A DNA stretch of 50,729 bases from Pseudorhodoplanes sinuspersici (GTDB taxonomy: Bacteria > Pseudomonadota > Alphaproteobacteria > Rhizobiales > Xanthobacteraceae). The stretch covers positions 1 through 50,729 of the forward strand of contig CAMBBO010000002.1 in the NCBI GenBank assembly GCA_945862935.1. Direction: 5' to 3'. The translations under genes and the position numbers were made by a program. This document shows positions 45,130-47,239 of the stretch, in pieces. Position 1 is the first letter of the stretch. Each line of letters starts with the position of its first letter. The notes below the pieces were generated by a model. That model saw only the letters and a list, made by a program, of their open reading frames with translations. It had not been told where the DNA came from and ran no database searches.

Positions 45130-46281
45130 ATGTCAAAACGCTGCTTTTACGAAACGCTTGAAGTCGAACGAAGCGTCGACGATGGCCAGATCAAGACGGC
45201 CTTCCGCAAGCTCGCGATGAAATGGCACCCGGATAAAAATCCGGGCGATCAGGCATCCGAAAACCGCTTCAAGGAAATCAACGAAGCCTACGAAATTCTG
45301 AAAGACCCGAACAAACGGGCTGCCTACGACCGCTTCGGTCACGCCGCGTTTGAGCAGGGCGCGGGCGGCGGCGGCGCGCACGGCTTCGGAACAGATTTCG
45401 CCTCGACCTTCGCCGACATCTTTGAAGGCGTGTTCGGCATGGGCGGTGCTGCCCGCCAGCGCAGCGCATCGGGGCGCGAGCGTGGTGCTGATCTTCGCTT
45501 CAATATGGAAATCACGCTGGAGGATGCGTTCGCGGGAAAAACCGCGGAGGTCCGCATTCCGACTTCGGTGGTGTGCGAAACTTGCTCCGGCACGGGCGCG
45601 AAGGCAGGCACCAAGCCGAAGACCTGCCAGCATTGCGGTGGTCAGGGCAAAGTGCGCCACGCGCAAGGCTTCTTTACGCTCGAGCGTACTTGTCCGATCT
45701 GTCAGGGACGCGGCCAGGTAATCGAGGACCCATGCCCAAGCTGTTCCGGCTCTGGCCGTGTCACGCGCGAACGCACCTTGTCGGTCAACATCCCGGCAGG
45801 GGTCGAGGACGGCACGCGCATTCGTCTTGCCGGTGAAGGTGAAGCGGGATTGCGCGGCGGGCCTTCGGGCGATCTCTATATTTTTCTCGGTATTGCGCCG
45901 CACGCGTTTTTCCAGCGCGACGGTGCGGACCTGCATTGCCGCGTTCCCATCTCGATGGTGACAGCGGCCATCGGCGGAGACTTCGAAGTCCCGACCATCG
46001 AGTCAGCCAAGAGCCGGGTCAAAGTTCCGGCTGGCACCCAGTCCGGCCGCCGCTTCCGCCTGCAGAGCAAGGGAATGCCGGTTCTTCGTTCGCGCCAGAC
46101 CGGGGATATGTACGTTCAGGTCGTGGTCGAAACGCCCCAGAACCTGACAAAGAAACAACGCGATTTGCTTGCGGAATTCGAAAAGCTCTCGTCGAAGGAG
46201 ACTCATCCAGAATCCGCGAGTTTCTTCTCCCGGGTCAAGGACCTGTTCGATGGGCTGGGAAGCAGAGCAAATTCCTCGTAA
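45130..46281 (+). CDS. dnaJ: Chaperone co-factor DnaJ (Hsp40)
   Basis: 383 residues. J domain with HPD at 33-35, Gly/Phe-rich stretch 75-105, zinc-finger domain with all four CxxCxGxG repeats (Cys 149/152, 166/169, 188/191, 202/205), and C-terminal peptide-binding domains. Complete type I DnaJ. Stimulates DnaK ATPase and delivers substrates. The start at 45130 has GAAGA-type purines upstream. Confidence 0.97.
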
Positions 46282-46351: not shown

Positions 46352-47239
46352 ATGCAAATGCAGTTACCGGAAAAGCGCGACAAGAAGCGCATCAACCTCG
46401 AAGACGAGGTAAAGCAGTTCCGGGCGTGGCTCACGACGCGTTTGCAGAAGCAGCCCGGCAAGAACGCCAAGACCAAAAGCACCAAGAAGCCAATCAATTT
46501 CGACGACGAGGTCAAACTCGTCCGTGCCTGTCTCGCGACGCACCTTCACATGCCCACGCCGACGCCGGCCGGTGTCGCAAAAAAGCGCATCAATTTCGAC
46601 GACGAGGTCAAACTCGTCCGTGCGTGGATCGAAAAGCGCTTGCAGCCGCTGCCGAAGGACAAGAAGAAAAGCGACCGTCTCGACGACGAAGTCCGATTCA
46701 TAAAAACATGGCTCGAGAAACCACTCGACATCGGCGCGGTATCGCCTTCGAGCCGGATGCTCGCGCGCACGATGGCGCGCTACGTCGACCCGAAATCGCA
46801 CGGCCCGGTTATCGAACTTGGACCGGGCACAGGCCCGGTTACGGAAGCCTTGGTCGAGCGCGGGATCGATCCGTCGCGTCTGGTCCTCGTGGAATTCGAT
46901 CCAGTCTTCTGCAAATTGTTGCGTGCGCGCTACCCCAAGGCAACGATTGTTCAGGGCGACGCTTACCGGCTGAAGCTGACGCTCGATCATCTCATGCAGG
47001 AACCCGCCGCCGCCGTGGTGTCGAGCCTTCCGCTGCTCACCAAACCAATCCGCACACGATTGCGTCTGGTACACGATGCGATGGCGCTGATGCAGCCTGC
47101 GGCGCCGTTCATTCAATTCACCTATTCGATGACGACCCCGCCGATTCCGAAGCGCACACTTGGCCTGAAAGCCGAAGCTTCCGATCGCATCTGGATGAAC
47201 CTGCCGCCCGCCCGCGTGTGGAGCTTCCGGCGGGCGTAA
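46352..47239 (+). CDS. pmtA: Phospholipid N-methyltransferase PmtA with fourfold N-terminal helix
   Basis: 295 residues; Rhizobium-type PmtA is about 200. The C-terminal 190 residues are Pmt[35 protein letters not shown] motif [15 protein letters not shown] (residues 153-167), [11 protein letters not shown] and a final [13 protein letters not shown]. It methylates phosphatidylethanolamine to phosphatidylcholine with SAM. The first 107 residues hold three extra copies of the initial amphipathic helix: 12-32 ([20 protein letters not shown]), 46-66 ([20 protein letters not shown]) and 78-98 ([20 protein letters not shown]); the family's own copy is at 107-126. Linkers are Lys/Pro rich. In Agrobacterium PmtA this helix binds anionic membranes. 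No Shine-Dalgarno is obvious; Met3 is an alternative start. Confidence 0.88.
46384..46741 (+). repeat. Tandem in-frame repeat, four units, within pmtA
   Basis: Units start near 46384, 46487, 46583 and 46669, at steps of 34, 32 and 28 codons. Units 2 and 3 share 35 identical bases (46493-46527 and 46589-46623); units 1 and 4 are diverged. Conserved protein core is DDEV-x-x-x-[RK]-[AT]-[WC]-[LI]. Confidence 0.9.

Follow-up and report, generated by a model that had tools for sequence, protein, structure and literature searches.

The question raised by this locus is whether the phospholipid N-methyltransferase PmtA has here multiplied its N-terminal membrane helix (alphaA) and, if so, what the multiplied helices may do. 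The first-pass annotation of this DNA had proposed a PmtA with three extra copies of the helix placed before the normal one, and the identity of the protein, the identity of the repeated unit, and the multiplication itself have all been borne out, the last by self-matching and by an alphaA profile. The window referred to below is the whole stretch of DNA analyzed, 50,729 nucleotides in length.

The pmtA Locus and the Catalytic Domain

The product of positions 46352–47239 of the forward strand, 295 aa long with an ATG start, is the phospholipid N-methyltransferase PmtA, encoded at the locus common to its family. The gene is located downstream of dnaJ (45130–46281, forward strand), its upstream neighbor in conserved synteny, and is the positional ortholog of the family pmtA genes; the order dnaK-dnaJ-pmtA continues with a gene for a protein that resembles, judged from a motif, an NADPH-FMN reductase. 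Nearly all the family loci read have a DnaJ motif near pmtA. The start codon directly follows a TGA, with no evident Shine-Dalgarno sequence (window positions 46352–46366), a second in-frame ATG lies at 46358, two codons past the first, and an in-frame internal ATG at 46550 could yield a shorter, two-helix form of the protein. Antisense and other-frame open reading frames over the pmtA DNA were set aside, as homology favors the forward frame.

Residues 132–295 (46745–47236, forward strand) form an ordinary Rossmann-type SAM methyltransferase domain, whose best Foldseek match is the PmtA of Agrobacterium, AtPmtA (PDB 9KO3; E = 9.5e-18, TM 0.87–0.90 by target length; phmmer 2.3e-29). The SAM motif E/DxGxGxG of the S-type PmtA enzymes is present as ELGPGTG at residues 155–161, and so is the conserved tyrosine of the substrate groove (Y161 in AtPmtA, Y163 in BdPmtA of Bradyrhizobium diazoefficiens), here Y258. 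The score against NF045881, the NCBIfam equivalog model of the Agrobacterium-type PmtA, is 161.9 bits (E = 1.3e-47), below the curated cut-off of 250, so the protein falls outside that model. Residue S225 (window positions 47024–47026) occupies the position of A128 in AtPmtA and G130 in BdPmtA, which is part of the putative substrate-binding groove; 91% of the family orthologs have Gly there and the other 9% Ser. A degenerate enzyme was considered and rejected, with only T119, S225, and F292 departing from the consensus at positions conserved in at least 90% of the sequences; judged from its sequence, the catalytic domain is intact.

The groove residue F256 stands at the position of I159 in AtPmtA and F161 in BdPmtA, and a Phe is found there in 78/78 family orthologs compared. 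Published mutagenesis has shown that Phe at the substrate site favors monomethyl-phosphatidylethanolamine (MMPE) over phosphatidylcholine (PC) (PMC12139422). Since Phe stands where the PC-making AtPmtA has Ile, the main product of the enzyme is predicted to be MMPE, not PC (PMC12139422); the role in PC synthesis suggested earlier is qualified by this prediction. The source genome, a metagenome-like draft of 317 contigs that is about 87% complete, has one S-type Pmt. It also carries, on another contig, a PC-synthase-like gene (L125, positions 71–904; contig C314), whose best NCBIfam match, NF045888, is scored at 271.8 bits, below the cut-off of 400. Because of this gene, PC in this genome could arise without full methylation by PmtA.

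Layout of the Helix Array

The units of the array, all on the forward strand, are extra copy 1 (46382–46453, residues 11–34, predicted helix 16–32), a Lys-rich linker (46454–46483, residues 35–44, predicted coil), extra copy 2 (46484–46555, residues 45–68, predicted helix 50–64), a Pro/Ala-rich linker (46556–46579, residues 69–76, TPTPAGVA, predicted coil), extra copy 3 (46580–46651, residues 77–100, predicted helix 82–96), a third linker (46652–46663, residues 101–104, PKDK), and the native helix (46664–46717, residues 105–122). The last of these, equivalent to alphaA of AtPmtA, directly precedes the catalytic domain, aligns with the PmtA of S. meliloti and relatives, and is scored at 41.2 bits by the family alphaA profile. 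The residue ranges given for the copies in the first-pass annotation proved right to within 1–2 residues, and the lengthening of about 100 residues claimed there came to about 95.

When anchored on the motif [ED]DEV, the 24-residue units comprise residues 11–34, 45–68, 77–100, and 105–128. Copies 1–3 are identical to each other at 13–15 of the 24 residues (copy 1 to the other two at 13/24 and 15/24) and to the native unit at 8–10. The best self-match of residues 1–125 is scored at 87, whereas 1,000 shuffles averaged 25.7 and never exceeded 49. A scan of residues 1–106 with an alphaA profile, built from the native helix of 76 relatives with the array protein left out, gave matches at 11–27 (5.3 bits), 45–54 (9.0 bits), and 76–95 (14.6 bits), the maximum in 2,000 shuffles being 6.3 bits. 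As this maximum lies between 5.3 and 9.0, copies 2 and 3 are clear as kin of alphaA by the profile alone, and copy 1 is assigned mainly through its likeness to copies 2 and 3. Pfam contains no domain that scores above its cut-off within the first 108 residues.

At the DNA level the array is degenerate, apart from a 35-nt stretch identical between copies 2 and 3. An assembly artefact or slippage is unlikely, as the copies differ at 17–22 of 72 nucleotides, are in frame, and have a coding-like GC3 (0.80 vs 0.73); no tandem repeat of the array period was reported in the pmtA DNA, which argues in the same direction.

Helix Faces, Amphipathicity, and Charge

In AtPmtA the membrane-binding motif consists of R8, K12, and F19, and the opposite, hydrophobic face of the helix is needed for tubulation (PMC5312082). 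In that paper the tested pair is named F13A V24A, and the conclusion is drawn on F20 and V24. Positions of AtPmtA were mapped via the PmtA of S. meliloti (N-terminus MSLRLRVKEKFGRKFDEEIRFFKGWM), whose numbering is offset by two, in an ungapped alignment, with the 9KO3 chain in agreement through its SAM motif at 58–64; mapped this way, K12, F13, F19, F20, and V24 correspond to R109, L110, F116, I117, and L121 of the native helix. The equivalents of F13, F20, and V24 are hydrophobic in all the copies (L16/F23/L27 in copy 1, F50/V57/L61 in copy 2, and F82/V89/I93 in copy 3), so the remodeling face is retained whichever AtPmtA pair is meant. The equivalent of K12 is Asn in every extra copy and that of F19 is Q, L, and L in copies 1–3, respectively. 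The extra copies have thus lost two of the three positions of the membrane-binding motif and kept the hydrophobic positions of membrane bending, and for this reason they would not be simple additional charge sensors.

AlphaFold2, run with twelve relatives devoid of the array and also on the N-terminus alone, predicts helices at about 16–32, 50–64, 82–97, and 104–122, in both runs as four separate elements with coil between them and at low confidence in the array (block means about 33–60). Over a 12-residue core the hydrophobic moment of the copies is 0.56–0.64 and that of the native helix 0.65 (for the copies, shuffle p = 0.04–0.07 on the Fauchere-Pliska scale and 0.14–0.18 on the Eisenberg scale). 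Over 18 residues it is 0.27–0.31 (shuffle p about 0.33–0.36), against 0.56. The amphipathicity of the copies is therefore only in part that of the native helix, close to it in the 12-residue core and below it across 18 residues. This partial likeness neither overturns nor clearly upholds the avidity idea of the first-pass annotation, which was to fail if the extra units did not form amphipathic helices. The net charge of residues 1–122 is +12, compared with +1 to +2 for the leader and helix in four one-helix relatives, and most of this excess is contributed by the Lys-rich stretches.

Distribution and Origin of the Array

In the genus-mates PmtA is about 200 residues long and has a single helix; six of the seven genus-mates searched carry such a protein, and in the seventh, G004, a 96% complete genome, no PmtA was detected. 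Most relatives within the family share the C-terminal end and start about 95 residues later than the array protein. With the first 120 residues as the query, a search that could miss two-copy or strongly diverged arrays and in which one-helix genus-mates do not score, the array was found solely in the source genome among 391 family, 397 order, and 385 class genomes, these samples overlapping and each being drawn from a larger group. Among about 90 N-termini read directly there was no second alphaA array, exact peptide patterns did not find one in the collection of named genomes, and no description of a PmtA with N-terminal repeats was found in the literature, mostly that of open-access journals. 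The earlier view that the array is absent from relatives and that no such PmtA has been described agrees with these samples and papers. Insertions of ~6–11 residues are present just before the helix in one genus-mate (L008) and in two proteins of another genus (L097 and L098), and that of L008 resembles a partial repeat (VLRLDRLDDEV).

Between the copies dN is 0.22–0.27 and dS 0.56–1.21. In neutral simulations the deficit of amino-acid changes had p = 0.02, 0.05, and 0.14 for the three copy pairs, which are not independent; the evidence of selection is modest, and the fewer changes than expected suggest selection on the protein. The catalytic domain, compared with four relatives, has a dN/dS of about 0.1–0.16, and its dS from four genus-mates is 1.35–1.96. 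As the dS between copies is lower than this, the data fit an origin of the array after the split from the sampled genus-mates, with the reservation that gene conversion between the copies could depress their dS.

An Unrelated Repeat at the Same Site

In 32 PmtA proteins of the family, from eight genera, the N-terminus is extended by 18-residue basic helical units, e.g., ERKIERQIRLFEQKRDGI, present in one to about six copies before the normal helix and varying in number between relatives. Since long open frames were among the grounds on which these genomes had been selected, the number 32 should not be read as a frequency. Proteins L011, L016, L055, L071, and L078–L094 are among those with this repeat. 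Its homology to the alphaA array was considered and rejected, since it scores at most 1.0 against the alphaA profile. In three examples computed, the hydrophobicity periodicity is best at 96–99 degrees per residue, a value expected of a straight helix lying on a surface and not of a heptad coiled coil. A tree of the catalytic domain requires about 7–9 changes of the repeat label, at least three of them forced by well-supported branches, although much of its branching is poorly resolved and the repeat may also have been lost in places.

Because an unrelated repeat occupies the same place in these 32 proteins, the enlargement of the PmtA N-terminal region is recurrent. It is possible, although we consider it doubtful, that the membrane-contacting N-terminus of PmtA in this family is recurrently selected to become an array of several helices, along two or more unrelated routes (alphaA copies here and the 18-residue repeat in eight genera), making a housekeeping methyltransferase a tunable membrane-binding or membrane-shaping protein.

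What the Array May Do

The best explanation, to which we give about an even chance of being correct, is that of a lineage-specific multivalent membrane anchor in which an ordinary catalytic domain follows four alphaA-like helices. The 5'-terminal part of the gene, encoding a basic leader and alphaA, would have been duplicated and then re-duplicated in frame, and the resulting short helices, four in all, would be connected by flexible tethers rich in Lys and Pro. Each helix would be disordered in solution and most likely fold shallowly into the inner leaflet on meeting anionic lipid, toward which the Lys-rich stretches could exert a long-range attraction. Several weak, reversible contacts would then add up, so that the enzyme stays membrane-bound for longer and responds more sharply to anionic lipid; its ability to bend membranes may rise as well. 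The array thus probably strengthens membrane binding and perhaps membrane bending; helix formation on membranes, avidity, cooperativity, and curvature are all what we infer for it from sequence. Of the candidate roles put forward in the first-pass annotation (raised avidity, linking of membrane patches, and lipid-charge sensing), avidity is plausible, given that the amphipathic helix of E. coli MreB, a weak one, localizes GFP to the membrane slightly as a single copy and fully as two copies (PMC3163269). In favor of an anchor are also the derivation of the copies from alphaA, the four separate helices predicted in both AlphaFold2 runs, the hydrophobic remodeling positions kept in every copy, the net charge of +12, the shortage of amino-acid changes between copies, the low dN/dS of the catalytic domain, and the recurrent lengthening of the same region in the family. 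The points against an anchor are the occurrence in one draft genome, the weak 18-residue moments, the lost equivalents of K12 and F19, the low AlphaFold2 confidence, and the modest strength of the selection evidence.

That the copies arose by neutral or near-neutral in-frame expansion and do little, being tolerated on an already flexible N-terminal tail, would agree with an array seen in one genome of hundreds, with the loss of two of the three binding-motif positions and of most of the 18-residue amphipathicity, and with the pair of copies 2 and 3, which is compatible with neutrality (p = 0.14). The other two copy pairs, however, are short of amino-acid changes, every copy keeps its hydrophobic positions, and the array has acquired neither a stop nor a frameshift, whereas ~28–61% of single-unit neutral simulations gained a stop; we regard such an expansion as rather unlikely. 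Distinctly unlikely, in our estimate, is a membrane-shaping module, with curvature generation or sensing as the main role of the protein, aided by MMPE as its predicted main product, even though the copies retain the F13/F20/V24 equivalents and lose those of K12 and F19, the remodeling face of AtPmtA is separate from its binding face (PMC5312082), MMPE in vitro turns AtPmtA from tubulating to vesiculating liposomes (PMC5312082), and a Phe at the position of I159 points to MMPE as product (PMC12139422). The effect of AtPmtA is known in vitro and on overproduction, and the moments calculated for the copies over 18 residues are low.

The helices could also make contact among themselves or with a partner protein instead of the bilayer, as a self-association or docking array. 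The heptad-like hydrophobic spacing of F82, V86, V89, I93, and L97 speaks for this, and weak 18-residue amphipathicity would suit protein contacts as well. It is nevertheless improbable, considering that the copies are kin to a helix with shown lipid binding, that the linkers are rich in Pro and Lys, that AlphaFold2 predicts, at low confidence, separate elements, and that AtPmtA is described as monomeric (PMC3972451).

Comparison with Known Systems

The array protein is a well-defined variant of a known enzyme, seen to date in one genome, and its interest lies mostly in being the second, unrelated repeat expansion at the same PmtA site. In alphaA of AtPmtA binding and bending are placed on opposite faces of one helix, and the array protein lends itself to testing how affinity, the response to lipid charge, and curvature depend on the number of helices and on their faces. 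Together with the 18-residue-repeat proteins it provides a natural set of PmtA enzymes that differ in anchor length.

With BdPmtA and the family orthologs the protein shares the fold and the catalytic residues, and with the family orthologs also the dnaJ-pmtA arrangement. In the family ortholog L021 the residue numbers coincide with those of BdPmtA (G130, F161, and Y163; BdPmtA residues from PMC12139422); F256 and Y258 of the array protein are the equivalents of F161 and Y163, and Ser replaces Gly at the position of G130. The family orthologs have one alphaA, in some cases preceded by the unrelated 18-residue repeat, in contrast to the four alphaA-like helices found here. The PmtA proteins of Agrobacterium (9KO3) and Sinorhizobium are 34–35% identical to the array protein, align with its native alphaA without gaps, and likewise consist of an amphipathic helix followed by a SAM domain, but AtPmtA has one helix and Ile at the substrate site, with full PC synthesis, where the array protein has Phe. 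The 18-residue-repeat proteins of the same family, encoded at the same locus, also have an N-terminus extended ahead of alphaA by basic helical repeats, whereas their repeat is unrelated to alphaA and runs head to tail without the Pro/Lys linkers of the array. The doubled MreB helix of E. coli is likewise a series of weak amphipathic helices, although one that was engineered on GFP and is not homologous to that of PmtA.
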